Assembly (NCBI GenBank): GCA_900320505.1
Contig: ONSL01000006.1
Span: 1-41,252 of the forward strand
Reading direction: 5' to 3'
DNA from: an uncultured Eubacteriales bacterium
Lineage (GTDB): Bacteria; Bacillota_I; Bacilli_A; RF39; UBA660
Length of the DNA: 41,252 bases
How positions within the stretch are numbered: the first letter of the stretch is position 1; every line of letters starts with the position of its first letter. The notes beneath the pieces were generated by a model. It made no database searches and had not been told where the DNA came from. It worked only from the letters and a program-made list of their open reading frames with translations. Shown piece after piece: positions 2,167-40,858 of this stretch. The position numbers were made by a program, and so were the translations under genes.

Positions 2167-3531
2167 TTATTTCTTTAATTTATCAAAGAAATTGCCTATA
2201 ATATTATTCTTGTTTACATTAGAATTATTAGAAGAATTTTCTATAGTCAAGCTAGAAAAATCACTTCCATTTTCATCTTCTATTCTGCTATTTAAAAGAC
2301 CAACCTCATCTTTTACAAAAGTATCATCAGTTGATAAATTAGATAAACTTCTATTAGTATCTAAAAAATTAGTATCATTACTTTCACTCTTATACTTAGA
2401 TAAAAACATAATAAGTAAAACAATAAATGAAATAAAGATAATTGCAGAAAATGTAACACTAATAAATTTAGAAAGTAAAATTATAAATAAGAATGCAATA
2501 ACCCCTATTAAAATAATTTTAGGAACATAATAAGTAATCTTACCAGATACATTCTTATTTCTACCATTTAAGCATACATAAGAAATATCATTCTTATTTC
2601 TATAACTATAAAACCAAACAGGTAAATAAATAACTTTATAGTCTTCACTTTTTAAAGTATAGTTAAAATTATCCCAGTGTACACCTCTATCATAACTATT
2701 CATAGTATCATTCGCAGAAGAGCGAGCAATAGACTTACTCATATTATCAATCTTATTCTTAAATTTAAAAATATTTATATCACCACTTGCTGCTTCATAA
2801 TTATTTAAATATCCACTACTCCACTTTAAAGCATTATTAGTATCAAATGGAAGAATTGAATTGAAACTAGTCTCTTCTATTCCAGCATTTTCAATAACAG
2901 AGGATTGCATAAGACCATTGATATTTATATCAAAACTTCTTGAAACTGAATAAAGTTTAGCATCGTATTTAGTTGCAGTCTTATCATTAACCTTATCCTG
3001 ATACTCTTTAACCTTAGTCTCTGCTTTTCCATTAAAAGATGCATTTGCAGAAATATTTGCAATAACATAAGGAAAATAAATACCCATAATCTTATTTTTA
3101 TCAAGACCAGTCTTAAACTTAGGATCAGCAAGTAAACTTTTCTTATTTACATAATCCTTAATTGCATCATAAGCGTCATCTTTATTAATACTAAAAGGTA
3201 AAATATAATTTGGAGCATCTGCACCAGGAACTTTATCTTTAGCATCTAACTTAGAATGACATACATAGCACGTAGCATCAATACTATTAGCATCAGCAAC
3301 TACATAAGTAGAACAATTAGGACATTTATAAGTAACAATTGATCTATCACTATTATCAAAATCATTTGCAGTTATTGGCTTATTTTCAAAACTTTGTAAA
3401 ATACTGTTGTTGCTATTTCTATCATTTTCTATTTCAAACAAATTTCCACAATTATTGCACTTATAACCAGTACCAGTTGATGCAATATTCATAGATCCAC
3501 ACTTAGGACACTTTCTAATATTTAAAGCCAT
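2167..3531 (-). CDS. Zinc-ribbon membrane protein (TFIIB-type ribbon)
   Basis: A 454-residue protein with two N-terminal zinc ribbons: CPKCGS...CNNCG (about residues 8-28) and CPNC...CYVC (about 70-93). A central soluble part with an 'ILPFSINKDDAYDAI' block and 'MGIYFPYVIANI' follows, as in a broad Bacillota family of TFIIB-type-zinc-ribbon proteins of unknown function. Two hydrophobic segments lie near residues 337-375, and the C-terminal tail is polar and Asn/Ser-rich. The start follows a GAGAGGAG ribosome site. It heads the operon with the two downstream membrane proteins. The ribbons suggest nucleic-acid or protein binding, which is inference only. Confidence 0.7.
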   Translation of the reverse strand: MALNIRKCPKCGSMNIASTGTGYKCNNCGNLFEIENDRNSNNSILQSFENKPITANDFDNSDRSIVTYKCPNCSTYVVADANSIDATCYVCHSKLDAKDKVPGADAPNYILPFSINKDDAYDAIKDYVNKKSLLADPKFKTGLDKNKIMGIYFPYVIANISANASFNGKAETKVKEYQDKVNDKTATKYDAKLYSVSRSFDININGLMQSSVIENAGIEETSFNSILPFDTNNALKWSSGYLNNYEAASGDINIFKFKNKIDNMSKSIARSSANDTMNSYDRGVHWDNFNYTLKSEDYKVIYLPVWFYSYRNKNDISYVCLNGRNKNVSGKITYYVPKIILIGVIAFLFIILLSKFISVTFSAIIFISFIVLLIMFLSKYKSESNDTNFLDTNRSLSNLSTDDTFVKDEVGLLNSRIEDENGSDFSSLTIENSSNNSNVNKNNIIGNFFDKLKK

Positions 3532-6522: not shown

Positions 6523-6591
6523 AAAGAACTAGAAGTATCTAGTCGGTTAAGTGTTCTCCATTCATACCACAATATGAAAGGAGGAACTTCT

Positions 6592-6693
6592 ATGATAAAA
6601 GTAAATAAAAAGAATATTTTAATTACCTTTTTAATAGTAATTATATTATTATTACTAGGTATTATTATATTTTTAATATTAAAATTACTATAG
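6592..6693 (+). CDS. Hydrophobic toxin-like peptide 1 (type I TA)
   Basis: A 33-residue peptide beginning MIKVNKKNILITFLIVIILL, with a single membrane helix spanning most of its length and a short basic N-terminus. The ribosome site AAAGGAGGAAC is strong but lies in a leader that can pair with it. Small hydrophobic peptides with a structured leader and a convergent 3' antisense RNA are the hallmark of type I toxins such as TxpA/RatA and BsrG/SR4 in B. subtilis. The 3' UTR contains module 2, whose antisense RNA would pair with this mRNA. The toxic function is inferred. A nearly identical copy follows at 6980. Confidence 0.65.
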   Translation: MIKVNKKNILITFLIVIILLLLGIIIFLILKLL

Positions 6694-6704
6694 GGGTTTG
6701 GTTG

Positions 6705-6783
6705 AAAAAACGCGCTTAACTTAAAAAGTTAGGCGCTAACCCAAAAACTTTGGAGAGCACCTAATTAGATTAGGTACTTCTCT
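6705..6783 (-). ncRNA. Antisense RNA of type I TA module 2
   Basis: Minus-strand TATAAT at 6795-6790, a short transcript, and a terminator hairpin from GCGCCTAACT/AGTTAAGCGC followed by GTTTTTT (6710-6705). It overlaps the 3' UTR of peptide 1 completely. Its 5' part contains AGAAGUACCU, complementary at 9 of 10 positions to the peptide-1 ribosome-site segment AGGAACUUCU, so it could block translation as well as pair with the 3' UTR. Confidence 0.6.
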
Positions 6784-6789: not shown

Positions 6790-6979
6790 ATTATATGCAA
6801 GTTCCACTTGCTAATTAAATTTTAACATAAATATACTTTATATTCAATATCCCATTTACACCAAAGTTAACACATCAACTTATTGCTTTTATCATTATAC
6901 TTCTGTTATTATAGAAAATCAGAAGTATCTAATCGGTTAAGTGTTCTCCAATCTTAAACATATGAAAGGAGAAACTTCT

Positions 6980-7081
6980 ATGATAAAAGTAAATAGAAAA
7001 AATATTTTAATTACCTTTTTAATAGTAATTATATTATTATTACTAGGTATTATTATATTTTTAATATTAAAATTATTATAG
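6980..7081 (+). CDS. Hydrophobic toxin-like peptide 2 (type I TA)
   Basis: A 33-residue peptide identical to peptide 1 except for Arg at position 6 instead of Lys. It has the same promoter layout (TTGCTT, 18 bp, TGTTATTAT upstream near 6893-6915), the same leader fold (TTCTCC against GGAGAA) and the same stop context (TAGGGGTT). Retention of an intact reading frame in both copies, with only near-silent change, suggests both are kept functional. Module 3 lies in its 3' UTR. Confidence 0.65.
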   Translation: MIKVNRKNILITFLIVIILLLLGIIIFLILKLL

Positions 7082-7097
7082 GGGTTCGGTTTGAAAA

Positions 7098-7122
7098 AAC
7101 TTTCATAATATGAAAGAGGATC
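7098..7122 (+). other. Remnant of a third toxin leader
   Basis: The stretch TTCATAATATGAAAGAGGATC resembles the leader and ribosome site found before both toxin peptides (TTCATACCACAATATGAAAGG and so on), but no toxin ORF follows before module 3. The likely origin is a third unit with an internal deletion. Confidence 0.4.
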
Positions 7123-7269: not shown

Positions 7270-8049
7270 TCATTCTCCAATATATGTTATTCTTGCATAT
7301 CCATTACCTGAATGTCCTGTTGTAATTGTTCCATCTGGTTGAGGCTGTCCTACATAATCACCTTTTACAGTTGTCCAGTTATATCCTGCTCCATCTATCA
7401 TTACTGTATCTGTAAACTTATATCCACTATAATGATATGAACATGTTATATCTGTTGTACCATCTGTACACGTTCTTCCATTTGAATCTGTTCTTTGTTT
7501 TATATTATCCTCAGTACTATCCTCTGTTATTGCAACACATCCATTATGACCTGAGATGAAGGAGGAGCCTCCTGATCCCTCGGATCCACCATAATAACCA
7601 TTTCCACCACCGGCAATACTGTCAATATCTGTTGATTTAGACGTTGGAATAAGATATGCATAACCAAATTGACCATTATAAACAGAATTAGATGATCCAT
7701 AATAAACTTGCTTATATATTCCACCAGTTATTTGAGTTGCACCCGTTGGGGAATATTTAGACATATAGCCAGGACCAGTTAAAGTATAGTTTAATTCATA
7801 GCCAATTAATCCACCTCCGGCACCGCCAATAATTTCTACATAGCTTTCTGTGGGATAATTATGGTGATCATATAAAAATCCTCCACCACCAGCAGCAGTT
7901 ATTATTCTAGATTTAATGGAAGAAAAATCATATGATTTCATAAGAAGACTTGAATACAAAAAAGGTGCTATTGGATGTTCAATAGACACATTATACAGAA
8001 TATCAGTAGTACTTGGAGTTACTATGGATAAATTCTTTGAATAAAACAT
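7270..8049 (-). CDS. Glycine-rich domain protein, possibly N-terminally truncated
   Basis: A 259-residue protein dominated by Gly-rich blocks (TAAGGGGFLYDH, IGGAGGGLIGYE, SIAGGGNGYYGG, SEGSGGSSFI) and ending in a 'GNGYARITYIGE' motif. This is the pattern of the bacterial/ALK-type glycine-rich domain, whose repeats pack as polyglycine helices. Such domains usually sit in exported proteins, but no signal peptide is present here, so the gene may have lost its front part. Two Cys pairs (NGCVA, RTCTDGTTDITC) could form disulfides outside the cell. AAAAGGA lies a few nt before the ATG. Function unknown. Confidence 0.55.
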   Translation of the reverse strand: MFYSKNLSIVTPSTTDILYNVSIEHPIAPFLYSSLLMKSYDFSSIKSRIITAAGGGGFLYDHHNYPTESYVEIIGGAGGGLIGYELNYTLTGPGYMSKYSPTGATQITGGIYKQVYYGSSNSVYNGQFGYAYLIPTSKSTDIDSIAGGGNGYYGGSEGSGGSSFISGHNGCVAITEDSTEDNIKQRTDSNGRTCTDGTTDITCSYHYSGYKFTDTVMIDGAGYNWTTVKGDYVGQPQPDGTITTGHSGNGYARITYIGE

Positions 8050-8074
8050 ATAATCCTTTTAGGAGGATTTTTTT

Positions 8075-8314
8075 ATGTTTGGAGATAATTTCTATAAAAA
8101 AGTAGAAAAGAAAACTAAAGTAAATAAAGATACAATATTAGGACTTGCAAAAAAACTTCAAAACTCTAATATGAAAGATGAAAAAACAATAAGAGAAGTA
8201 ATACACGAAATATCAAATCTTACAGGAAAAGATGTAACAAAAGAAAAAGAAGATAAAATAGTATCAAGTATAATAAAAGATAAAGTACCTAAAAACATAG
8301 ATAAAATGTTTTAA
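8075..8314 (+). CDS. spoVIF: Stage VI sporulation protein F (SpoVIF)
   Basis: A 79-residue protein. 'NFYKKVEKKTKVNKDTILGLAKKLQNSNMKDEKTIREVI' followed by 'VTKEKEDKIVSSI' matches the small SpoVIF (YjcC) family, which regulates spore-coat assembly in Bacillus at a late stage. Length is close to the family norm. An AGGAGG site lies 7-8 nt before the ATG. A terminator follows at once, so it is monocistronic. It lies next to the convergent DGR operon and about 4 kb from spoIVA. Confidence 0.8.
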   Translation: MFGDNFYKKVEKKTKVNKDTILGLAKKLQNSNMKDEKTIREVIHEISNLTGKDVTKEKEDKIVSSIIKDKVPKNIDKMF

Positions 8315-8338
8315 AACAGATTTTAATCTGTTTTTTTT
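8315..8338. terminator. Terminator between spoVIF and the DGR operon
   Basis: Stem AACAGATT/AATCTGTT with a TT loop and a T tract on the + strand. The symmetric stem could also end minus-strand transcripts from the DGR operon. Confidence 0.85.
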
Positions 8339-8753
8339 AGAACAAAGAATCTAAATAATTATTTATTTTATCATAATTATCATTAGAAATTTCTAAAAGT
8401 AAATTAATTTTATTAATTAAATCATTTATTTTTTCTTTTTCTAAATGTTTAATACTAGCAGCCTTGCTATAACTACTATAAAAATCATCCTTATTACTAT
8501 ACTCATCTAGCACATTACAATCCAAATCATACACAATAAAACTAATATGTTTAAATTTTAAATTACTAATTACCTTACTATATGAATTAGAACTAAATCC
8601 TAACTCGTTATCCTTTATTTTATATTCAAATAAATACCATAAAAGTATTGCATCATCATTATAAGAATAATAAAAAATACCACTTTTAACAATAACAAGA
8701 ATATCCTTATTATCATCTTTACAATTATTATAACACTTCTCTATTTTACTCAT
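8337..8753 (-). CDS. DGR accessory protein, MutS domain I-like (MSL)
   Basis: A 138-residue protein. Residues about 18-48 (DILVIVKSGIFYYSYNDDAI, then LLWYLFEYKI) follow the MutS mismatch-recognition domain I pattern G-x-FY-x4-DA-x4-L, and 'KHISFIVYD' fits the next strand. The C-terminal 45 residues are helical and charged. The rest of MutS (clamp, ATPase) is absent. Its ATG overlaps the stop of the reverse transcriptase (ATGA), with AGGAG upstream, so it is translationally coupled. MutS-like (MSL) accessory genes have been described for a subset of DGRs. A role in handling TR-cDNA/VR mismatches is plausible but inferred. Confidence 0.65.
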   Translation of the reverse strand: MSKIEKCYNNCKDDNKDILVIVKSGIFYYSYNDDAILLWYLFEYKIKDNELGFSSNSYSKVISNLKFKHISFIVYDLDCNVLDEYSNKDDFYSSYSKAASIKHLEKEKINDLINKINLLLEISNDNYDKINNYLDSLF

Positions 8754-9877
8754 AATTTCTCTCCTAACTTATAAAAACCATTTTTTGCAATAAACATATT
8801 ACATGAACACATATTAAAATAGCCTTGATAACTAGCAAGACTTGAATTATATCTTTTTAAATCATTATGCCTAAAATACCTAAGTCTTCTAGATATTCTC
8901 TTTTTAGTTTCACTATTCATAATAACAATTAGTTTATTATTTTTATTTAATACAAATCTATATCCAAGAAAATTTATACCGTTTTTAATAGAATAAATAT
9001 GAGTTTTCTTCATATTTAACTCTAACTTTTCATTTGAAATAAATTTTTTGATTTCACCATAGCAATATTTAAGATAATCTTTATCTTCATGAAGTAAAAT
9101 AAGATCATCCATATATCTAATATAATACTTAATATGAAGTTTTTCTTTTATATAATGGTCAAGATCGTTAAGATAATAAACAGCAATTAATTGACTAGTC
9201 ATATTACCTATAGGGATACCTTTATTTAAATTATAAAAAGGAATTGAATTTAACTCATCAACCTTAGAAGCTATATGAGGATTCTTAGACCTTTTTAGTC
9301 TATTAATTTCTTTTTGAATTTCTGCTTTAATTCTTACATTAGTTTCTAACCTATTTGTTGTACCAAGTATCTCTTCTAAAACAGAAATTACATCAACATC
9401 ATTAATAATTTTCTTTAGCTTATTAAGAACAATCTCATGATCTATATTGTAAAAATATTTCTTAATATCTAGTTGTAATATATAAAAATTTAAATTATTT
9501 ACCTTTAATTTATTTATATATTTTTTTAAATAACTAATACCCAAACTAGTTCCTTTACCCCTTCTCGTTGCAACATTAGTATCAATAAGTTTAGGTTCTA
9601 TAAGAGGAAGAAGAATCTCTTCACTGATTAAATGATTTATAATTTTATCAGTAATACATTCAGACATAATGAGCCTATATTTTTTTTCTTTGTAAAGAAA
9701 AATATTATACTTTTGATGCTTATAACTTTTAGATTTTAATATTTCATAAATATTCATTACATTAGTCATATAATAAGTTTCAAAATTTATTATCTTATCT
9801 TTATGCTTTGTAGATTTTCTAACATCTTTATATACCTTTTCAATTTTTTCTATGTCAAGAAGACTTTGATAAAGCAT
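8750..9877 (-). CDS. DGR reverse transcriptase
   Basis: About 375 residues. Motifs, numbered from the ATG at 9883, are: 'ATRRGKGT' (105-112), first catalytic Asp in LQLDIKKYF (139), 'GIPIGNMTSQ' (222-231, the SQ-type motif 4 that distinguishes DGR and related RTs), and the YMDD active site (257-260). A thumb-like C-terminus with 'NFLGYRF' follows. It copies the TR RNA with adenine errors into cDNA that replaces the VR. The AGGAG site is 8 nt from the ATG at 9877 and only 2 nt from that at 9883, so 9877 is preferred. It overlaps avd by about 23-29 bp and the MSL gene by 4 bp, forming one operon. Confidence 0.93.
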   Translation of the reverse strand: MLYQSLLDIEKIEKVYKDVRKSTKHKDKIINFETYYMTNVMNIYEILKSKSYKHQKYNIFLYKEKKYRLIMSECITDKIINHLISEEILLPLIEPKLIDTNVATRRGKGTSLGISYLKKYINKLKVNNLNFYILQLDIKKYFYNIDHEIVLNKLKKIINDVDVISVLEEILGTTNRLETNVRIKAEIQKEINRLKRSKNPHIASKVDELNSIPFYNLNKGIPIGNMTSQLIAVYYLNDLDHYIKEKLHIKYYIRYMDDLILLHEDKDYLKYCYGEIKKFISNEKLELNMKKTHIYSIKNGINFLGYRFVLNKNNKLIVIMNSETKKRISRRLRYFRHNDLKRYNSSLASYQGYFNMCSCNMFIAKNGFYKLGEKL

Positions 9878-10229
9878 TTCCATTGCTCCTTATAACACCA
9901 TATACAAGCTTTCTAATAATAATTAAAAGTCTAGCAACACATTCAAGCTGATGATTACTAATATATTTCTTTTTATAAGAAATTTTTATATACATATCAT
10001 ACATAGCAAGCTTAACAAGAAAATTTTTTAAATACTTATCGCGTATCCTAGGACTATTGGAATTAACATTAGAATAAAATATATTCTCAATAAGTTCATA
10101 TTGAGTTTTTTCTAAATTTTGTTTCAGTACTACTTCCTTTTTAGGAAAATTAGGAACTAAATTATTTACATAATCGATTAGCTTATTAGTACTCTCTAGC
10201 AAATTGAACTTAACTTTGCCCTCTTCCAT
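9855..10229 (-). CDS. avd: DGR accessory variability determinant (Avd)
   Basis: A 124-residue, mostly helical basic protein (Lys-rich 'KISYKKKYISNHQLECVARLL'), the size of Avd, a four-helix bundle that forms a pentameric barrel, binds the RT and TR RNA and is needed for adenine mutagenesis. 'ENIFYSNVNSNSPRIRDKYLKN' fits the helix-turn-helix layout of the four-helix family. Position supports the call: it lies between the TR and the RT gene, on the same strand, and overlaps the RT start. GGAGG lies 6 nt before the ATG. Confidence 0.8.
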   Translation of the reverse strand: MEEGKVKFNLLESTNKLIDYVNNLVPNFPKKEVVLKQNLEKTQYELIENIFYSNVNSNSPRIRDKYLKNFLVKLAMYDMYIKISYKKKYISNHQLECVARLLIIIRKLVYGVIRSNGNALSKSS

Positions 10230-10256
10230 AAAACCTCCAAAAAATAAGATATAGTG

Positions 10257-10286
10257 TATAGTATCTAAAGTTTTTAAAACTCTAGA
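10257..10286 (-). other. Hairpin in the TR-avd leader
   Basis: GTATCT...AGATAC encloses a second pairing of AAAGTTTT with AAAACT, about 30-55 nt upstream of the avd start. It lies within the predicted TR RNA downstream region, which in characterised DGRs is needed for priming and RT-Avd binding. Confidence 0.4.
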
Positions 10287-10529
10287 TACATCTATATCAT
10301 CTATTTTGATTATTAGTCAAGGAATGAACTTGTTTCCAATCTGATTAGAAATCATCTTAAATATTAATACGTATTAAATACTAACATTTATCCAGATTTT
10401 ATAAAAACAAATAAATACAAAATCTCCAGATTATACATTAAGTAAACTTAATATACTACTTCTTCTCACTATAAGACGTATCCTATAGTACTCGGTGGCA
10501 TTAGTAAAGCTAATCGTAGTAAGGAAGCT

Positions 10530-10642
10530 CCGGGCGAACCCCATTCGAGTTAGTCGTGTTGTTGTCATCAAGAGCACCGCCACCATTGACGTTGAACACG
10601 TTCGCGTTCCAGGTAGAGTTGCCATAGTTGACATAACCGCCA
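10530..10642 (-). repeat. DGR template repeat (TR)
   Basis: 113 bp aligning without gaps to the VR at 10851-10963. Twelve positions differ, and on the minus (sense) strand all twelve are A in the TR: 12 of 27 template adenines changed, 0 of 86 other positions. Read in the VR frame it gives AAC/AAT/ACN codons at exactly the variable positions. The 3' end, GGGGTTCGCCCGG on the minus strand, is identical in both copies and is the initiation-of-mutagenic-homology end. The TR itself is not translated in this frame as an independent gene. Short ORFs across it are by-products. Confidence 0.95.
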
Positions 10643-10718
10643 TGTCTAAAGGGTTAAACCTGCTATTAAGAACATCCCTATATTAATCTATATTAAATGA
10701 TTAATACCATTGATTGTT

Positions 10719-10764
10719 GTTAACCAAAGGTTAACATTTTTTTCGCAAAGAGTTGCGAAAAAAA
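10719..10764. other. Two adjacent perfect hairpins between VR gene and TR
   Basis: GTTAACC/GGTTAAC with an AAA loop (10719-10735), then a 12-bp perfect stem TTTTTTTCGCAA/TTGCGAAAAAAA with a 4-nt loop (10737-10764). The second is symmetric, so it could stop transcription or form a cruciform. Both lie between the target gene stop and the TR. Confidence 0.7.
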
Positions 10765-10779
10765 CTTATCTGAATCCAC

Positions 10780-11862
10780 TTATCCTACAGTGTATGGATC
10801 AGATGAGGTGCCTGTACCTCCAGTTATCGCATCTGAAGTCAGATTGACGACCGGGCGAACCCCAAACGAGTTAGACGCGTCGTTGTCATCAAGAGCACCG
10901 CCACCAGAGACGTTGAACACGTACGCGTACCAGGTAGAGGTGCCATAGCCGACATAACCGCCACATGGTGTCATAGTCCAGTAATTAGTACCGATATTTG
11001 CATAATTAGTAGCTCCTTTTGTATAATTTGCACCTCCATCAAATATTCCACCTGATGAACCTGCAAGTATAACTTCATCTGCAGTCATAAGACCTATTGG
11101 ATAAGTAAGAGCCTTATTGCCTTTATTTGAAGAAGTAACAGTATATAAATCATTAGATTGACGACACTTCAAGCTAGGTTCACTAAACACAGTACGAGTA
11201 TATCCATCATAATATGTAGTTAAATTACTATATCCATAGTAAGATCCAGACCTTGACCTATCTCCACAAAAACCAGCATTAGTTGATATATATTTTGAAT
11301 AATTAGCAAGATTAGACTGATACCAACTATCAACCGCCTGCTTTATTGAACTAGAATTTGTATTTTTTGTTGAAGCATCATATGAGCTTGCTCCAACTGT
11401 ACCATACATATAAAATGCATTTGCATTATCAGTATAAGAAGGATTAAACTGACTATCAGTTCCAGTCGTACCGTTAAGAACAATTCTAACAGTACCATCT
11501 CCATTAACTCTAATTACTCTCCATGTTTTGCCAGCAAAAGAAACATAGTTATTAGAAGAATTACCTCTAAAGAAATAACTTGTTCCATCATCATCATCCA
11601 TCATATAAACACCCTCTTCTGATGTTGCAACCTTATAATCAGGTGTTCCCTCACTTACCTTGAATGTTAATCCAGACAAATTATGGATAGTAGTTCCAGC
11701 AAGATTTTTTGTAACAGTCATACTAATAGTATTCTTTGTTCCAACTTCTTTTGAAAGAATAGCATGAGAAGAAGGAAGAAATCTAGTAACAATACCACCC
11801 AAAACAAATGCTGAAGCTGCTAGAATAATTGTCTTATTTTTATTCCACTTTACACTTTTCAT
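10780..11862 (-). CDS. DGR target: anchored surface protein with variable C-terminus
   Basis: A 360-residue protein. Residues 1-11 are basic, 12-33 hydrophobic (TIILAASAFVLGGIVTRF; anchor or signal), followed by an extended Ser/Thr-rich part. From about residue 88 it reads 'DDGTSYFFRGNSSNNYVSFA', then 'GKTWRVIRVNGDGTVRIVL', a domain common in exported proteins of gut Bacillota. The C-terminal part ends 'SFGVRPVVNLTSD', the closing motif of the C-type-lectin/FGE-like fold used by DGR targets. The VR covers residues about 300-338. Variable residues are G305, T308, Y312, Y314, S319, D328, A329, S330 and F333. It probably displays a mutable ligand-binding face outside the cell. Confidence 0.9.
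   Translation of the reverse strand: MKSVKWNKNKTIILAASAFVLGGIVTRFLPSSHAILSKEVGTKNTISMTVTKNLAGTTIHNLSGLTFKVSEGTPDYKVATSEEGVYMMDDDDGTSYFFRGNSSNNYVSFAGKTWRVIRVNGDGTVRIVLNGTTGTDSQFNPSYTDNANAFYMYGTVGASSYDASTKNTNSSSIKQAVDSWYQSNLANYSKYISTNAGFCGDRSRSGSYYGYSNLTTYYDGYTRTVFSEPSLKCRQSNDLYTVTSSNKGNKALTYPIGLMTADEVILAGSSGGIFDGGANYTKGATNYANIGTNYWTMTPCGGYVGYGTSTWYAYVFNVSGGGALDDNDASNSFGVRPVVNLTSDAITGGTGTSSDPYTVG
10851..10963 (-). repeat. DGR variable repeat (VR) inside target gene
   Basis: 113 bp matching the TR, with changes only at TR adenines. Codon effects, TR to VR: N305G, N308T, N312Y, N314Y, N319S, N328D, T329A, T330S, N333F. All changed bases are at codon positions 1 or 2, so every change alters the protein. 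The invariant scaffold W311, F316, the GGGALDD block and GVRP is encoded by codons lacking exposed adenines or left unchanged. Confidence 0.95.
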
Positions 11863-11889
11863 TTTTCACCATATCCTCGCTAACCTAAC

Positions 11890-11918
11890 AATATCAAAAA
11901 AAAAAAAAAAAAGGTCAA
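11890..11918 (-). promoter_or_regulatory. Promoter of DGR target gene with homopolymeric T17 spacer
   Basis: On the minus strand: TTGACC (11918-11913, 5 of 6 to the -35 consensus), then exactly 17 consecutive T (11912-11896), then GATATT (11895-11890, 4 of 6 to the -10). The start codon is 28 nt downstream, leaving a short leader with the ribosome site. A 17-bp spacer is optimal, so slippage in the tract would move the promoter off optimum. Confidence 0.55.
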
Positions 11919-12046
11919 TATTTTTAATATAAAAAAATGTAAAGTAAAGAAGATAAATGTAAAAATTTATTGAAAAAAATATTTTTTTATTATTATGAAT
12001 ATTTATATAATTTAAGAATAAAATTAAAAAGAACAGGAGAAGATTT

Positions 12047-13522
12047 ATGGATAAAAGAGAAATATTAAAAAATATAATTGAACGTTCAAATGGAGAGATA
12101 TACCTAGGAGTTGTTGGAGCAGTTAGAACTGGTAAATCAACATTTATAAAAAAAGTTGCAGAAAACTTAATAATTCCAAACATGAACGATGAATATGAAA
12201 AGAAAAGACTACTTGATGAACTACCCCAATCATCAAAAGGTAAAATGATAATGACAACAGAACCCAAATTTGTCCCATCTAAAGCTGCAAAAATAAAAAT
12301 AGATGAATTTTCTTGCAATATAAGACTAATTGACTGTGTTGGATTTGCAATAAATGGTGCAGATGGATTAACAGAGAATGGAATGCCAAGAATGGTTAAA
12401 ACACCATGGTATGATGAAGAAGTACCATTTATAGAAGCTGCAGAAATAGGAACTGAAAAAGTAATAAAAGAACATTCAACAATTGGAATAGTTGTAACAA
12501 CAGATGGTTCAATTGGAGAATTTACAAGACAAGACTATGTAGAAGCAGAAGAAAAAGTAATTAAAGAATTAAAAGAAATAAATAAACCTTTCATAATAGT
12601 GTTAAATACTGCACATAAAGAAAGTATTGAAACAGAGAAAATAAGAAAAAGTATTGAAGAAAAATATAATGCAAAAACACTTGCAATAAATATAGAAACA
12701 ATGAATAAAGAAGACATGTATGAAATATTAAAAGCAGCTCTTTATGAATATCCAGTTGTTGAAATAAAAGTATCTATGCCAGACTGGATAGGAATACTTG
12801 ATTCACACCATGAAATAAAGAAAAAATATATAGAAGAGATTAGGAAAAGTATAACAGATGTAGACAAGTTAAAAGACGTTGAAAAAATAAATAATAACTT
12901 TGAAAAATGTCCTGAGATAGAAAAAGCATTTGTAAAAGAAATAGATCCAAAAACTGGAACAGTAACAATAGAGTTACACGCTCCAAAAGATCTATTTGAC
13001 AAAACATTAAAGGAAGTAATGAACATAGACGTAAAAACAAAAGCAGATTTATTAAAAGTATTCCAAGAATTAAACATAGCAAAAAAAGAATATGATAACA
13101 TCAAATATGCATTAAAAATGGTAAAAGAAACAGGATATGGAGTATCTATTCCAAAAGTGGAAGATATGAAATTATCAAAACCTGAAATAGTAAAAGAAGG
13201 TGCAAGATATGGAGTAAAAATAAAAGCAGTCGCACCAACAGTACACATGTTAAAAGTAAATGTAGAAAGTGTATTTGAACCAATAATAGGATCAGAAAAA
13301 GAATCAAAAGAACTTGTTGATAACCTAATGAAAAACTATAAAGATGATAGAGAAAGCCTTTGGAATAGTGAAATATTTGGAAGAACAATAAATAGTATTG
13401 TTGAAGAAGGAATAAAAGCAAAAATAAATATGATGCCAGATAATGTAAAGTATAAACTTGATAAAACAATTACAAAAGTAATAAATAAAGGATCAAGCAA
13501 TTTAATAACAATAGTAATATAG
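12047..13522 (+). CDS. spoIVA: Stage IV sporulation protein A (SpoIVA)
   Basis: 491 residues, matching the 492 of B. subtilis. SpoIVA is a coat-morphogenetic ATPase that polymerises on the forespore surface and forms the platform for coat and cortex assembly. The N-terminal TRAFAC-like ATPase domain is seen with Walker A GAVRTGKST (24-32), 'MTTEPKFVPSKA', and 'IRLIDCVGFAINGADG' as the Walker B/switch region. The middle and C-terminal domains follow to GSSNLITIVI. CAGGAGAAG precedes the ATG. It is normally expressed in the mother cell from a sigma-E promoter, which I could not pick out here. A terminator overlaps its stop. Confidence 0.96.
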   Translation: MDKREILKNIIERSNGEIYLGVVGAVRTGKSTFIKKVAENLIIPNMNDEYEKKRLLDELPQSSKGKMIMTTEPKFVPSKAAKIKIDEFSCNIRLIDCVGFAINGADGLTENGMPRMVKTPWYDEEVPFIEAAEIGTEKVIKEHSTIGIVVTTDGSIGEFTRQDYVEAEEKVIKELKEINKPFIIVLNTAHKESIETEKIRKSIEEKYNAKTLAINIETMNKEDMYEILKAALYEYPVVEIKVSMPDWIGILDSHHEIKKKYIEEIRKSITDVDKLKDVEKINNNFEKCPEIEKAFVKEIDPKTGTVTIELHAPKDLFDKTLKEVMNIDVKTKADLLKVFQELNIAKKEYDNIKYALKMVKETGYGVSIPKVEDMKLSKPEIVKEGARYGVKIKAVAPTVHMLKVNVESVFEPIIGSEKESKELVDNLMKNYKDDRESLWNSEIFGRTINSIVEEGIKAKINMMPDNVKYKLDKTITKVINKGSSNLITIVI

Positions 13523-13544
13523 ATGGAAAACCATCTATTTTTTT
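13519..13544 (+). terminator. Terminator of spoIVA
   Basis: ATAGATGG/CCATCTAT stem with an AAAA loop and seven T. Confidence 0.9.
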
Positions 13545-13930
13545 ATTACAAAATCTCCAAATTCAATATATTTAATAATATTATCAAGTTTATTTACATT
13601 TATAAAATAATAATCATCCTTAAAAAAATCATAATTATTAACATTAAAGTAATCTTTAAATTTAAAATAAATTTTATCAGTATATACCTTAATCTTATAA
13701 TCAAAAGCATCACATAAGTCATCTATAAAATTAAAAAGAATAATATTAGCATGCTTACTAGTATAAATATTAATAGAATAAAATCCACTTAAATTAATAT
13801 CATAATCTTTTAAAATTAAAATCAAATTATTAACATAGGACTTAACATCATCTTTATCAAAAGAAGATAAATTATTTAATAAAGTAATAGAATAATCTTT
13901 ACCATCTTTTAAAACCTTCAAGTGCCTCAC
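13535..13930 (-). CDS. Hypothetical protein
   Basis: A 131-residue protein with no signal peptide or membrane segment, rich in Asp, Asn, Lys and Tyr with beta-strand-like stretches (FYSINIYTSKHANIILF, YKIKVYTDKIYFKFKDYF). It ends just inside the spoIVA terminator and reads away from engB's end. 'GACGGC'-type known motifs are absent. The ATG follows an AGGTGAGGC ribosome site. I do not recognise a family. Confidence 0.55.
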   Translation of the reverse strand: MRHLKVLKDGKDYSITLLNNLSSFDKDDVKSYVNNLILILKDYDINLSGFYSINIYTSKHANIILFNFIDDLCDAFDYKIKVYTDKIYFKFKDYFNVNNYDFFKDDYYFINVNKLDNIIKYIEFGDFVIKK

Positions 13931-13953
13931 CTAAATTATTGTATGAAAAAAGC

Positions 13954-14547
13954 TTAAATAGTTTCATCTACCAAGCTTTCAATTTTATTTAAAGTTTCAT
14001 TTTTACCAAGTCTAGTATTACTAGAGAAAACAATCAAATCATCACCTAAAACAAGATCAATAGTATCCATAATCTGTTTTAAACATTTTTCTTTTTTAGA
14101 TCCCCCTACTTTATCAGCTTTAGTTGCAATAATAGTAACTGGAATATTATAGTACTTAAGATAATTATACATAAGTACATCATCTTCTGTTGGTTTAATT
14201 CTAAAATCAACTAGCATAAAAACTCTCTTTAATTGTTTTCTAGTCTTTAAATACTCCTCAATCATCATACCAAACTTTTTCTGCTTTTCTTTAGAAACCA
14301 TTGCATAACCATATCCCGGAACATCAACTAAATAAAAGTTTTTATTAATTAAGTAAAAATTAAGAGTCTGTGTTTTACCAGGTTTAGAAGAAGTATATGC
14401 AAGATTTTTTCTTCCAAGTAGACAGTTAATAAAACTACTTTTACCAACATTACTTCTACCAACAAGTAAAAATTCAGGAAGCCCTCCTTCTGGATACTGA
14501 CTAATTCTTGTAGCCATTATCTCTAAATCTGCACTTTTTATTGTCAT
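13954..14547 (-). CDS. engB: Ribosome biogenesis GTPase EngB (YsxC)
   Basis: About 197 residues from MTIKSADLEIMATRISQYP. A single TRAFAC GTPase domain is seen: G1 GRSNVGKSSF, G2 'SKPGKTQTLNFY', G3 DVPGYGYA, G4 TKADK, G5 'SSNTRLGK'. It is essential for a late step of 50S assembly. An AGGTGG site lies 6 nt before the ATG at 14547, so that is chosen over an in-frame GTG at 14556. The upstream nrnA stop is 1 nt away, so they form an operon. Confidence 0.95.
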   Translation of the reverse strand: MTIKSADLEIMATRISQYPEGGLPEFLLVGRSNVGKSSFINCLLGRKNLAYTSSKPGKTQTLNFYLINKNFYLVDVPGYGYAMVSKEKQKKFGMMIEEYLKTRKQLKRVFMLVDFRIKPTEDDVLMYNYLKYYNIPVTIIATKADKVGGSKKEKCLKQIMDTIDLVLGDDLIVFSSNTRLGKNETLNKIESLVDETI

Positions 14548-32875: not shown

Positions 32876-34845
<1,970 letters not shown>

Positions 34846-35122
34846 TCCATTATAAAATATCAATATATTATGAATTATAAGATTCCAACCATAATTCCGA
34901 CCATAATAAATCCTTATAAAATAAGGTTTTATTATATTTAGTCGTCCATTTTTATGGACTAATTTTGCAAGTGCAAAATAAGTTTTTCCCTATTAAATGC
35001 CTAGATTTTATCTAGGTTTTAATAGTTTTAAGGGAAAATCTCTTATGCTCTTATTATTTTTAATACTAAAAATAATGTAATTATGGTCGAAACTTAACCA
35101 AAATCAACCATATATATGGTTG
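34846..35122. other. Structured non-coding segment
   Basis: No ORF. A 10-bp inverted repeat CGACCATAAT (34898-34907) / ATTATGGTCG (35080-35089) encloses several hairpins: TCCA/TGGA, TTTGCA/TGCAAA, and a nested set TTTTCCC-TATTAAA-CCTAGAT/ATCTAGG-TTTAATA-GGGAAAA at about 34983-35037. A CAACCATA/TATGGTTG hairpin follows near 35105-35122. It could be a terminator cluster, an attachment site or an RNA. Confidence 0.5.
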
Positions 35123-35154
35123 AAAAAAAGAGATAATTTTTTATTAATTATCTC
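35123..35154 (-). terminator. Terminator of the restriction operon
   Basis: GAGATAATT/AATTATCTC stem followed by seven T on the minus strand. It overlaps the methyltransferase stop. Confidence 0.8.
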
Positions 35155-36778
35155 TCTTTCCACGATTGTGTCTTCTATTTACCATGAATTTCCATATATT
35201 TCTAAATTCATTAACAATCTTTTTGTCAATTTTTAATATATTAATTAAAAGCTCCTGATCCATTATATCAAGCAGTTCTTCGATATCATTTTTGTTTCTT
35301 ATTTTTTCATCAATAGTTTTTAAAAGATTTTCAACTTTATTCTTGTCCATTTTTTCTATTTTTGGAAGAAGAATGTTTGAAACTTCTTTAGGTAAAACTT
35401 CGAGAACTCCCCCACCATAACTTCTACCATTCAATTCAACAAATGCAAAAGTTATACTATTATAATAAGATAGTGTAACTATGTTTTTATCTACACCTTC
35501 ATAGAAATTAATTCTATGCATAGTATCTGTTGAAACAGCATTGATTTTATTAATTACAAATTTTGGATAATTATTACTTCTTCTTAAGAAAAAAGCATCT
35601 GGAACCCATATTGAAGGAATGCAATACCATTTATTTCTTATTTTGCATTTATATCCCTTATTTGCTCCTATCTTTTCTCCATATTTAATATATTTTTGTT
35701 GTTTAGTTGGTAGTTCATTAAAATCAATGCTTTCATCAAAATTTAGCAGGAATGCTTTAACACCTTTATTAATGTTAAACTGCCAGTCATTTTTATCAAA
35801 AAATAGTCCATGAGCTTGAGAACTTCTGCCTATCAAAGGTAATGCTACTGATTCCAAATCATATTCATCAACTGTCTTCTTATCTACAGAAAAATAATCA
35901 TTATTTCCAGTTGTTATTCCTACGTTTATTAAAGCTATATCTTCAAATTTTTGAAATCTGTCATCACTTTTAATTTTATTTATTAAGTCATTTTGTTTAT
36001 CTGACAAATAATAGTTAGTCCATTTATTTCTTTCATCGACTAGGTTACTATATTCTAATTTATTTTCATCAAAGTTTTTAATTAAATCATTAATATCTTT
36101 GAAAGAACAATTGGATATTTCACATTTGTTTTTTTCTTTTTCCTTTTCTCCAATTAAAACTATAACTTCTTGTTCAGCATCATCAAATACTAGATTATCA
36201 AATGATATTATTGTTATTTTATTAAGTTCTCTTTTTAAAAAAGCACGTAAATCCTCTGCATATACTACTTGTAATAATTCTGCAGGAATTACAAATCCTA
36301 TTTTTCCATTATCATTTAACAAATTAACACAAGCAACCAAAAAGAAAACCCAACTATTAATTAATTTATTAGGAACCATATTGTTTTCTAATAATACATC
36401 TGATTGTCTTTTTCTTTGCTTTTCAGTTAAATATTGGTAACGTATATATGGAGGGTTACCTACAATTAAATCGTATTTTTCGTTCGTAGATTTATAAAAA
36501 TTATAAAAGTCATCATTAACTATATTAATAAAGGTCTTTTTACTGCATAAATGTTTAGCTTTTTCATATTCTTCTTTTATAATTTCAATTGCATCTACCT
36601 TATTATTCTTTTTTTTACTATCTATTATACTTTCTAAGAAAGCTCCATCACCACAGCTAGGTTCTAATATTTTTAAATTATCTTTATTTAGTAAATTCAC
36701 TATGAAACTTGATAGATTTAAAGGAGTATAATATCCACCTCGTTCTTTCTTAAAAGATATATCTTTTTTTAATTTCAT
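35144..36778 (-). CDS. N6-adenine DNA methyltransferase (M of an Eco57I-like system)
   Basis: 544 residues. The N-terminal 'RGGYYTP' block and motif I 'ILEPSCGDGAFLES' (39-47) bind SAM; motif IV NPPY (108-111) is the catalytic motif of gamma-class N6-adenine methyltransferases. The C-terminal half, with 'GITTGNNDYFSV' and 'PLIGRSSQ', is a TaqI/Eco57I-like target-recognition region. The ATG comes 3 bp after the stop of the fused restriction gene, so they form an operon. From memory, Eco57I also pairs a methyltransferase of about this length with an enzyme of about 1000 residues, so this one likely protects the sites. Confidence 0.88.
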   Translation of the reverse strand: MKLKKDISFKKERGGYYTPLNLSSFIVNLLNKDNLKILEPSCGDGAFLESIIDSKKKNNKVDAIEIIKEEYEKAKHLCSKKTFINIVNDDFYNFYKSTNEKYDLIVGNPPYIRYQYLTEKQRKRQSDVLLENNMVPNKLINSWVFFLVACVNLLNDNGKIGFVIPAELLQVVYAEDLRAFLKRELNKITIISFDNLVFDDAEQEVIVLIGEKEKEKNKCEISNCSFKDINDLIKNFDENKLEYSNLVDERNKWTNYYLSDKQNDLINKIKSDDRFQKFEDIALINVGITTGNNDYFSVDKKTVDEYDLESVALPLIGRSSQAHGLFFDKNDWQFNINKGVKAFLLNFDESIDFNELPTKQQKYIKYGEKIGANKGYKCKIRNKWYCIPSIWVPDAFFLRRSNNYPKFVINKINAVSTDTMHRINFYEGVDKNIVTLSYYNSITFAFVELNGRSYGGGVLEVLPKEVSNILLPKIEKMDKNKVENLLKTIDEKIRNKNDIEELLDIMDQELLINILKIDKKIVNEFRNIWKFMVNRRHNRGKRDN

Positions 36779-36781
36779 AAG

Positions 36782-39739
36782 CTATCCTTTCATTTCAATT
36801 AAAGTATAGATATCATCGTTTATTTCTTTTATAAAATTACTTTTCATTCTATTAATTATTTCTAAACTTTGTATATCTTCGTTGTTCATAATTTTGTCGT
36901 TAATTTCATTTATTGATTTTACCTTTGAATTAATTGAATAATATAATTCTTTTTCCTTTTCATCATCAAAATTTATTTTTATAATTGGTAAAATATTTAA
37001 TACTACAGTTCCTCTTGAATAAAATCCACCTTCAAAATCACTTCCTAAGCATTCCATTACACTTGTCATAATAGGATGACTTAAGTATGCTTGCAAGAAC
37101 TCTAATGAATATGGACTATCTTCTTTTAATTTAATTCCACAATAACCTGCTGTTCCTCCACTTTGAATAACCAAATTATTGTTATCAAACATGAACATTG
37201 GTTCCTTGGACATAACTCCAACAATTAATTTATCTTGATTATTAAATTCTGTTAACGCTTGTGTTCTTCCGTATTGATACCAATTACTAGTATTTGAATT
37301 AGGAACATCTCTTCCTTGTGAATTTCCTGTTACTTGTCGTGGAGCTATAATGTTATAAAATGTTTCCACATAGTTTTTAAATTTAGGAAAGTCATCAATA
37401 TTAATTAGCTCTCCATTTTCGTTATATGGGAAGATAATATATTTATCAGTATATAGAGGATCATAAGTTTTTACGTTTTTTTCTTGCATCGTAATAGGTT
37501 GATAATATCTCTTTAATAAATTCTTTTCAACTTTATACTTTTTATCATTTTTAATGAATTCTAAATATTTTTCATTATCATCTATTATTTCGTTTCCTTT
37601 AATTACATAAATATTATTTAAGCTTGTTTGAACACCATTAAAAGGTGTAGCTATTTCTGATAATAATAGTGAATTTGAAAACAATTTTTTTAAATCGTTC
37701 ATTTTCTTTAAATCATTTGAAAGAATCCATATTTTGTCATCTATTTCATTTGAATTAAAAATAATATTTTGCTCACTTAAATTATTTAATTTCCAATTAT
37801 TATAGTCAGTAATATAATTATATTCAAATTGATTGTTTCCTTCTTTATTTAGCATAATAATACAAGTGTATATTGTTTGATTAATAAAAACTTGTTGATA
37901 ATTAAAATCTAATAACAACTCCAAATAATTATTATTTGCAATTAAATTTCTTAATTCCTTACCAGAAGCAACTTTCATGAATTTATTAGGAACTATATAA
38001 CATAATTTACCATTGTCTTTTAATAGACTTATAGCTCTTTCAATAAATAAAAAATACTTATCAAATTGTTTGTAGGCTGTTTTATATTTTTCTTTATATA
38101 TATTCATTTCTTTTTCAGTTAATAAATTTTTCATATCACTAGTTTTAACATATGGAGGATTACCTATTATTAAATCGAATTTTAATCCTGGTGATACAAG
38201 ATTCCATGAAAAAGGATTTAATTCTATATAATCATCTGTTGAAGGTGCCATGTTAAAATCAATTAGTGAATTTCCAAATTCAACATTCATATCTAGTGAT
38301 GGAAGAATTGGATTAATATCAATAACTGTATTTATAGATTCATTTTCCAAAACTTTTAATAATAAACTAAATTTTGATACTTCTACAGCTTGAATGTCAA
38401 TATCATTACCATATATACATGATGATAACAATTCGCGTTTTTCAATATAAGGTAATTTATATGAATTATTATTTGTTTTTTCTAGTTTAGAAAATTCTTT
38501 ATTATCTTCATACCAATTTTCACAATAATTAATTATATATTCAAGCATATTTGTTAAGAATATTCCTGATCCGCACGCAATGTCAGCAAACTTCATTTTT
38601 TTTATTTCATTTGGAGATTTTCCAACAATTATTTTTTCCATAGATTTTTCTGTCATATATTTGACAATTTCAAATGGAGTAGTAACTATCGATCTATTTA
38701 AGTTTTCTTTTTTAGCTTTTAATCTTAGTACTCCATTATCCTCAACTAGTGTTTCAGACAAAAACAATTCATATATTTCACCTAATATGTCTGAACTAAT
38801 TACTGTAAAATCATATGGACTAATTGGATAATATAGTGATGTAATTATATTTTTTATTATACTTTTATCAAAAAGTTGCAATAATTCTTTATTTTTAAAA
38901 ATTCCAGAATTATAAGTTCTATCAGAAATGGTAAGTAATTTTAATAATTCTGATTGCAAAGTTTCATCCTTTGATGTTGACTTTGCTAATGTTTTATATA
39001 ATGGTAAATTTCTATCTTCACATATTCTTAAAAACACTATTTGATTAATAATCGTTTGTATTTCAAAATTAATATTTTTAATATTTTTTTCTTTTTTGTA
39101 TAAAAAATTCCCTAATTCTAATCTCCAATCATTTATTTGTTTTAAAAAGAATTCATCTACATTTAATCTAATACTATCATTTGAATTAAATAATGTTTCA
39201 TATGTTCCGTTATATATAATTTCTTTTGATATCATTGAATATATTTCATCAAATTTATCATAATACTCTTTATAATTGTATATTCCAACTAAATTATTAT
39301 TTATTTCATCATCTGGTTTTGGCATTACGGACGTATCATATATAATTAAATTTTCAAAATTAGTAAGAATAACAATCTTATGCTTAGCTGACCATCCATA
39401 TCTTTTTGCTTGAAAGCATGGATCTTTGTCTGTTTTAATATCTACATGTGGTTTCTTTGCTTCAACAAAGAAAACTGATCTGCCATTTAAATTAAAAGTA
39501 TAATCAGGTTTTCCTAATTCTTGTTCATATGACTCAACAGTTACTTCTTTTAATTGAGGTTTCTTACCTTGATTATTTTGAACATCCCATCCTAGGCATT
39601 CAAAAAACTTATCTATAAATTCTAATCTACATTGACTTTCATTATATCTATTACTTATATAATAATCATGATTACTATTGTATAAGTTAATTAATTCTTG
39701 TAGTTGTTTTTTAGCTGATTCTTTATTATAATTTGGCAC
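36782..39739 (-). CDS. Type IIG fused restriction-modification enzyme
   Basis: 985 residues. The N-terminal nuclease domain (1-130) has a PD-(D/E)xK site: PD at 78-79 and EAK at 93-95 (GRSVFFVEAKKP). A helical linker follows, then the methyltransferase domain with motif I 'FADIACGSGIFL' (around 384-395) and NPPY (527-530). The C-terminal target-recognition domain (about 690-930) contains 'TPFNGVQTSLNNIYVI' and 'SGGTAGYCGIKL'. One chain both cuts and methylates, as in Eco57I-type IIG enzymes. The start is GTG after AAAGGATGG. Two TACTGCAGTA palindromes flank its promoter. It is divergent from the DUF3800 gene. Confidence 0.92.
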   Translation of the reverse strand: MPNYNKESAKKQLQELINLYNSNHDYYISNRYNESQCRLEFIDKFFECLGWDVQNNQGKKPQLKEVTVESYEQELGKPDYTFNLNGRSVFFVEAKKPHVDIKTDKDPCFQAKRYGWSAKHKIVILTNFENLIIYDTSVMPKPDDEINNNLVGIYNYKEYYDKFDEIYSMISKEIIYNGTYETLFNSNDSIRLNVDEFFLKQINDWRLELGNFLYKKEKNIKNINFEIQTIINQIVFLRICEDRNLPLYKTLAKSTSKDETLQSELLKLLTISDRTYNSGIFKNKELLQLFDKSIIKNIITSLYYPISPYDFTVISSDILGEIYELFLSETLVEDNGVLRLKAKKENLNRSIVTTPFEIVKYMTEKSMEKIIVGKSPNEIKKMKFADIACGSGIFLTNMLEYIINYCENWYEDNKEFSKLEKTNNNSYKLPYIEKRELLSSCIYGNDIDIQAVEVSKFSLLLKVLENESINTVIDINPILPSLDMNVEFGNSLIDFNMAPSTDDYIELNPFSWNLVSPGLKFDLIIGNPPYVKTSDMKNLLTEKEMNIYKEKYKTAYKQFDKYFLFIERAISLLKDNGKLCYIVPNKFMKVASGKELRNLIANNNYLELLLDFNYQQVFINQTIYTCIIMLNKEGNNQFEYNYITDYNNWKLNNLSEQNIIFNSNEIDDKIWILSNDLKKMNDLKKLFSNSLLLSEIATPFNGVQTSLNNIYVIKGNEIIDDNEKYLEFIKNDKKYKVEKNLLKRYYQPITMQEKNVKTYDPLYTDKYIIFPYNENGELINIDDFPKFKNYVETFYNIIAPRQVTGNSQGRDVPNSNTSNWYQYGRTQALTEFNNQDKLIVGVMSKEPMFMFDNNNLVIQSGGTAGYCGIKLKEDSPYSLEFLQAYLSHPIMTSVMECLGSDFEGGFYSRGTVVLNILPIIKINFDDEKEKELYYSINSKVKSINEINDKIMNNEDIQSLEIINRMKSNFIKEINDDIYTLIEMKG

Positions 39740-39760
39740 AAAAATCCATCCTTTCTTTTA

Positions 39761-39806
39761 TACTGCAGTATTTACTAAATACATTATACCATAATTTACT
39801 GCAGTA
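39761..39806 (-). promoter_or_regulatory. Restriction operon promoter with paired palindromes
   Basis: A minus-strand extended -10, TGGTATAAT (TATAAT at 39788-39783), lies between two exact copies of the palindrome TACTGCAGTA (39761-39770 and 39797-39806). One copy would sit between -35 and -10 and the other just after the start site. A further perfect palindrome, GTATTTACTAAATAC (39768-39782), overlaps the first. This looks like an operator; no repressor gene is evident nearby. Confidence 0.55.
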
Positions 39807-39910
39807 GGAATAAATTTAATTAAATTTAATAAAAAAATAGTTCATCATAAGTCAACAATTAGAGATTATATGTTATAATTATTAAAGGTATTTTTAAATG
39901 GGGGGATTCT

Positions 39911-40858
39911 ATGAAAGATATTCATATAACTATTTTTTGTGATGAATCTAAAAATAGAAAAATTGGTCAAACAATATGTTCAGAATCACAGAATTGGAAC
40001 TATATAGGGGTATGTATTGTACCAACAGCTAAAATAGACGATGTTTCAAATAGCTTGAATAATTTAAGATGCGGTGCCAAAGAAAACTATCTTACTTGTA
40101 AAAAAAATTGCAAGTATCATGAAATGAACAAGAAAAAAATACATTATACTCAATCTCAAAATGGGTATATATATAAAACAGCAGATAAATGGACAGATTA
40201 TATCTTAAATAATTTTATTGATAAAGATTTTTTTATAAACATTCTAGGAATTGATTATTGCAAATTAGATAAGTCATATTTTAAATCAGGTGATGAATAT
40301 ACAAATATTGATGAGAATATTTATTGTAGATTTTTTAGAACTGCTATTTTATATGGCATTAAACATCTTTTATCAGATTATGACACTGTGATTGTTGATA
40401 ATATATATCATGATATTGGTGAAATGGAAAACCATAGGTATTTTAGAAAGCAAATTATTAATTATGCAAATTGGAATGAAGACAATATTATAATGAATTG
40501 CGATGAAATTAGCTTTATTCCAACAACTGATGAAAATTGTTTAGAAACTAAGAATGTCTTTTTACAACTAATAGATTTATTTTTAGGCGAATCGATTGCT
40601 TTAATACATGGTGATGTAGATAATGATAGAAAAAAAGATTTGGCTGTTAAATTATTTCCAATTGTTGATCATTGCTTGAATAGACCTAACAATCCTAATA
40701 GTAATTATCACAAATTATATTGTATTAGCTTTTTCCCAAAATATAGAATTAATGATGACATGGATGAATTTGAGAAAACTTTAAAAAAATATGACAATTT
40801 TTTTAATAAAAGAGAAATTAAGTTATCGAAAAGTGGAGAACAATTAACTCTTTTTTGA
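39911..40858 (+). CDS. DUF3800 protein
   Basis: 315 residues. It begins 'IHITIFCDESKNRKIGQ': an acidic CDES at the end of the first strand is the signature of DUF3800, an RNase H-like-fold family. Further conserved acidic residues are seen in 'DTVIVDNIYHDIG' and 'NVFLQLIDLFLGES'. These proteins are often found on phages, plasmids and defence islands; a nuclease activity is suspected but not known for this member. GGGGGATTCT precedes the ATG, and an extended -10 TGTTATAAT (near 39870-39878) lies upstream. It is divergent from the restriction operon. Confidence 0.82.
   Translation: MKDIHITIFCDESKNRKIGQTICSESQNWNYIGVCIVPTAKIDDVSNSLNNLRCGAKENYLTCKKNCKYHEMNKKKIHYTQSQNGYIYKTADKWTDYILNNFIDKDFFINILGIDYCKLDKSYFKSGDEYTNIDENIYCRFFRTAILYGIKHLLSDYDTVIVDNIYHDIGEMENHRYFRKQIINYANWNEDNIIMNCDEISFIPTTDENCLETKNVFLQLIDLFLGESIALIHGDVDNDRKKDLAVKLFPIVDHCLNRPNNPNSNYHKLYCISFFPKYRINDDMDEFEKTLKKYDNFFNKREIKLSKSGEQLTLF

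Follow-up and report, generated by a model that had tools for sequence, protein, structure and literature searches.

Layout of the locus

The window, meaning the whole stretch of DNA that was analyzed, spans 41,252 nucleotides of contig ONSL01000006.1 from an uncultured, gut-type Eubacteriales bacterium. Between two of its host genes, spoVIF and spoIVA, lies a cassette with the parts of a diversity-generating retroelement (DGR). Read along the minus strand, the order is target gene, template repeat (TR), spacer, avd, reverse transcriptase (RT) and MSL. The features are as follows.

8075-8314, plus strand: spoVIF, host flank; adjoins spoIVA in congeners without the DGR
8337-8753, minus strand: MSL gene, 138 aa, a stand-alone MutS domain I as judged from Pfam MutS_I and an AlphaFold model
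8750-9883, minus strand: DGR reverse transcriptase, 377 aa (RVT_1, YMDD, GNMTSQ)
9855-10229, minus strand: avd, accessory variability determinant, 124 aa (Pfam bAvd)
10230-10529, minus strand: TR-avd spacer, a conserved structured RNA and the 3' part of the DGR RNA (folding z-score, compensatory changes)
10530-10642, minus strand: TR, intergenic, with 27 adenines, 10 AAY codons and 17 variable codons
10737-10764, no strand assigned: hairpin TTTTTTTCGCAAAGAGTTGCGAAAAAAA, directly past the target stop and kept in the sister species
10780-11862, minus strand: target gene, 360 aa, with a hydrophobic signal- or anchor-like N-terminus and a C-terminal DUF6273-like/C-type-lectin-like domain that holds the variable repeat (VR)
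10851-10863, minus strand: IMH-like 3' end of the VR, GGGGTTCGCCCGG, without A and the same as the TR 3' end at 10530-10542
10851-10963, minus strand: VR, in the late part of the target gene (codons 301-337), ungapped with the TR
12047-13522, plus strand: spoIVA, host flank, divergent from the target gene

The RT matches RVT_1 in Pfam with 80.8 bits against a cut-off of 29.6 and carries an insert of roughly 29 aa at about residues 184-212, which is common to the RT of the sister species. It is of the DGR type and adjoins the TR, and the nearest RTs possess A-biased TR/VR pairs of their own. Avd reaches 43.9 bits on bAvd (PF22296; cut-off 40); its match to the DivGenRetAVD model (E 3e-7) falls under that model's own cut-off. 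The target ends in GVRPVVNL...PYTVG. A first-pass annotation had described a complete DGR with RT (YMDD, GNMTSQ), Avd and a target with the closing GVRPVVNL motif all intact, and this description holds. Absent from it was the MSL gene, the fourth protein gene of the cassette. A sigma-70 promoter scan gave a result no better than shuffles.

Template and variable repeats

A repeat scan of 8000-14000 returned a single direct-repeat family of 113 nt in two copies, the TR and the VR, which are 89% identical. The alignment of 10530-10642 with 10851-10963 is gapless over 113 bp, as had been claimed from the first reading. On the minus strand the TR is made up of 27 A, 28 C, 32 G and 26 T. Recomputation also bears out the adenine-only pattern: all 12 differences (12/12) fall on the 27 template adenines and none on the other sites (0/86), and the nine altered codons reported earlier (N305G, N308T, N312Y, N314Y, N319S, N328D, T329A, T330S and N333F) are all correct. 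By type, the changes from TR to VR are four A>G, six A>T and two A>C (n=12). The hypergeometric probability that 12 random differences would all lie on A is 3.5e-9, and the 0/86 changes at non-A sites place background divergence below about 3.5% (95%). A template A is present in 17 of the 37 codons; none of these can be converted to a stop, and about 9e15 proteins are possible.

The TR closely copies a coding segment, and one could consider an ordinary duplication or gene conversion of the gene end, followed by diversifying selection on the VR with no retro-mutagenesis. The A-only pattern beside an RT of the DGR type refutes this reading, whose probability is negligible: all 12 changes are at A, RT and Avd are adjacent, and dozens of RT-bearing relatives show the same A pattern. 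Among 37 TR/VR pairs of relatives, which had been selected for A bias, changes were seen at 574/1193 A sites compared to 27/2765 other sites. In an unselected repeat search among the relatives, the best repeats fell into two groups, with an A fraction of 0.29-0.6 or of at least 0.73.

The shared 3' end, GGGGTTCGCCCGG, is A-free and G/C-rich in both repeats, and in the alignment the TR/VR identity ends right behind it. Going by what is known of the Bordetella phage BPP-1, GGGGTTCGCCCGG would act as the IMH. No extra full copy of TR or VR was found in the bacterium's own assembly, a fragmented draft of 88 contigs and 1.2 Mb that is 81.6% complete. When the TR/VR pattern was sought in the same genome, in 8 genomes from the genus, in 386 from the family and in IMG/VR, only the window and the sister species matched.

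The target protein

The target resembles DUF6273 without belonging to it by score (16.4 bits, under the Pfam cut-off of 23.5). As DGR targets, DUF6273 domains with a C-terminal VR are known from Faecalibacterium prophages (PMC11792537). The structure model of the target is weak, with a mean pLDDT of 54 and mostly 45-80 in the C-terminal part. Foldseek with this low-confidence model found no PDB match under 0.001, and its realignment gave Z scores of 3-4 to many C-type lectins. A lectin-like fold is likely, given the general picture of DGR targets (PMC8144416). The target protein is probably lectin-like and either secreted or anchored in the membrane. For residues 97-360, the best match among solved structures after realignment is with part of the Thomasclavelia ramosa IgA peptidase (9qa6, Z 10.8, 16% identity), likewise a gut Bacillota protein. 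The hairpin TTTTTTTCGCAAAGAGTTGCGAAAAAAA is a putative terminator of the target, a putative target-site hairpin, or both.

Sister species and the age of the variable repeat

The same cassette, flanked by the same genes, is present in a sister species (G003), where the RT is 79% and the target 85% identical. The two TRs differ at 8 of 113 sites (7%), compared to about 15% for the spacer DNA and about 20% for the DNA of RT and avd. Six of the eight TR differences lie at third codon positions although the TR is no gene itself (binomial about 0.02), as expected if the TR sequence matters through the VR. The TR is under coding-type constraint between the species.

The same eight sites date the VR. 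At seven of them the window VR has the base of the window TR, and at the eighth a template A was changed to G. Since the VR follows its own TR, it was rewritten from the window TR, and the last rewriting came after the two species had separated. The proposal of the first-pass annotation that the VR was recently rewritten thus gains the support of an independent TR comparison.

In the G003 assembly (locus L019, G003:C27, 6732-10177), TR, Avd and RT are kept, the VR is missing from the target, the reading frame is lost just before GGGGTTCGCCCGG at the IMH-like end, and MSL is frame-shifted. The missing VR and the frame-shifted MSL may reflect real decay or a fault of the assembly. They lend some weight to the idea that the window DGR, too, looks intact and is now silent, the last rewriting of its VR falling at some point after speciation and the whole element drifting to loss. 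Against this idea, which is unlikely, stand the four intact protein genes and both intact repeats of the window, the lack of any background change at 86 sites and the coding-type constraint on the TR. The features of the window DNA instead point, almost certainly, to a complete, chromosomally inserted and recently used DGR.

The spacer RNA

The TR together with the spacer folds better than shuffles (z -3.8). Between the window and G003, all of the predicted pairs of the spacer are kept (85/85), a share that is partly built in because the structure was predicted from the same two sequences; 7/85 have changes on both sides and none is broken. Slid controls kept at most 44% of cells, and shuffles equalled the observed covariation in 2/500. 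The RNA fold of the TR-avd spacer is conserved. An Rfam scan of 8000-12100 gave no match. A structured spacer RNA is known from the BPP-1 DGR, with which the spacer fold of the window agrees.

Chromosomal setting

In three congeners (G004, G005 and G006), spoVIF and spoIVA are neighbors with no DGR between them, only 71 bp apart in G005. Since the site is empty there, the cassette was probably gained in the common ancestor of the window species and G003; the alternative is loss elsewhere. A gain would also fit cargo of a prophage or mobile element in place of a resident chromosomal cassette, and DGR RTs of phages are related to the window RT, at about 30%. This origin is very improbable given that only host genes flank the cassette in both species (spoVIF, spoIVA, a ysxC-type GTPase and ackA), that no phage genes were seen near it and that the closest RTs come from gut Bacilli genomes (79%, then 50-59% identity), ahead of the phage ones. 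The DGR is a chromosomal insertion, not a prophage.

The neighboring spoVIF and spoIVA suggested a role of the target on the spore surface. This was rejected: there are congeners without a DGR between the two genes, so location alone is no evidence for such a role.

RTs related to that of the window are present in 5 of the 8 genus genomes. There is also a second DGR in the same genome (L021, G000:C6, 1-3326), with RT at 206-1261, avd at 1248-1613, MSL at 1588-1938, a further MSL-like piece at 2-196 and a TR-like repeat at 2246-2286 that matches 3059-3099 in a cut target.

The MSL gene

The MSL gene lies directly downstream of RT, with a 4-nt overlap between its start and the RT stop. It matches MutS_I (Pfam PF01624) with 23.0 bits (cut-off 20.6), and 46/47 of its relatives match MutS_I as well. 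Its AlphaFold model has a pLDDT of 96.7, and MutS-type mismatch repair proteins make up all of the best 50 PDB matches. PMC10053308, which cites earlier work for it, names MSL as a DGR accessory; judged from profile and model, the gene at 8337-8753 is this known accessory, a lone MutS domain I.

MSL is genetically linked to RT. It adjoins the RT or is fused to it in 59 of 91 RT loci: 45 have it upstream of RT (mostly before avd), 8 downstream and 4 as a fusion to the RT C-terminus, and 2 more have two placements, one of these also being fused. In the remaining 32/91, some on cut contigs, it was not found. On a quick RT tree, at least 16 changes are required to explain the arrangement of MSL, with no fewer than 2 origins of the fusion. 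A clade in which MSL has been repeatedly rearranged and fused to RT is a good place to study its function. The five loci with a C-terminal fusion are L020 (2104-3426), L093 (5956-7509), L103 (2349-3866), L104 (367-1920) and L112 (3583-5370).

The mismatch-reading loop of MutS has the form G-x-F-Y-E, in which the roles of the Phe and the Glu are established. Among the 47 MSL sequences compared, this Phe-x-Glu is not kept: the loop is G-x-F-Y, with Phe in 46/47 and Glu in 3/47, and the window has F-Y-Y. The predicted MutS_I fold and the kept Phe make it plausible that MSL handles mismatched DNA. The host genome encodes its own MutS. A more specific proposal, tentative and on balance doubtful, is that MSL is a stripped-down mismatch-binding module of the DGR RT complex, with the intercalating Phe kept and the Glu mostly gone, which would bind the mismatched cDNA-VR duplex and either shield adenine-derived mismatches from the host MutS or aid strand exchange.

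Proposed mechanism and known systems

DGRs are the best known system for a bacterium deliberately rewriting one of its own proteins. By analogy with BPP-1, retrohoming in the window DGR would begin with the folding of a TR-avd transcript into a structured RNA, of which the RT-Avd complex would copy the TR part to cDNA, with random bases going in opposite template adenines. The cDNA would take the place of the VR in the target gene, starting from the IMH, the 3' end without A that both repeats share. The 17 variable codons would then give the target a changeable binding face with which it presumably binds a ligand. MSL may be a partner of the RT complex; what it binds would most likely be the cDNA or the mismatched duplex of cDNA and VR.

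The Bordetella phage BPP-1 DGR (brt, avd, TR, and VR in mtd) shares with the window DGR its RT, Avd, TR and a VR that lies at the target's 3' end, as well as A-only mutagenesis, the G/C-rich shared 3' end and a hairpin downstream of the VR. The window DGR differs in being chromosomal, in its extra MSL gene, in the order target-TR-avd-RT-MSL and in its DUF6273-like target. Gut Firmicutes have cellular and phage DGRs (Roux et al. 2021, PMC8144416) with the same adenine bias and the VR at the target C-terminus, and the window DGR fits their enrichment in Firmicutes and in the gut; it is set apart by its place between sporulation genes and by MSL. In the DUF6273 targets of Faecalibacterium prophages, the VR is likewise at the C-terminus of a DUF6273-type domain, but those are phage proteins, whereas the window target is chromosomal and under the DUF6273 cut-off (PMC11792537). 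The MSL accessory protein of DGRs (PF01624; PMC10053308) agrees with the window gene in being a MutS domain I that stands alone within a DGR operon; the window gene differs in lying downstream of RT, and in related loci MSL is fused to the RT C-terminus. DGRs of the same kind are known by tens of thousands (PMC8144416), and the window DGR is ordinary in kind: it belongs to a family of elements already known and has one extra gene that had been overlooked. Its value is as a clean, chromosomal case in which comparison with a sister species dates the rewriting after the split.

Elsewhere in the window

A 139-bp direct repeat (6572-6710 and 6960-7098) has 7 differences and no A bias, and each copy holds a tiny hydrophobic ORF (MIKVNKKNILITFLIVIILLLLGIIIFLILKLL in the first) behind a ribosome-binding-like site. 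The region 33055-40858 encodes a large serine recombinase of the cassette-recombinase type, an Eco57I-like methylase/restriction protein, a second methylase-like ORF and one ORF without a family match, and is a possible defense island.
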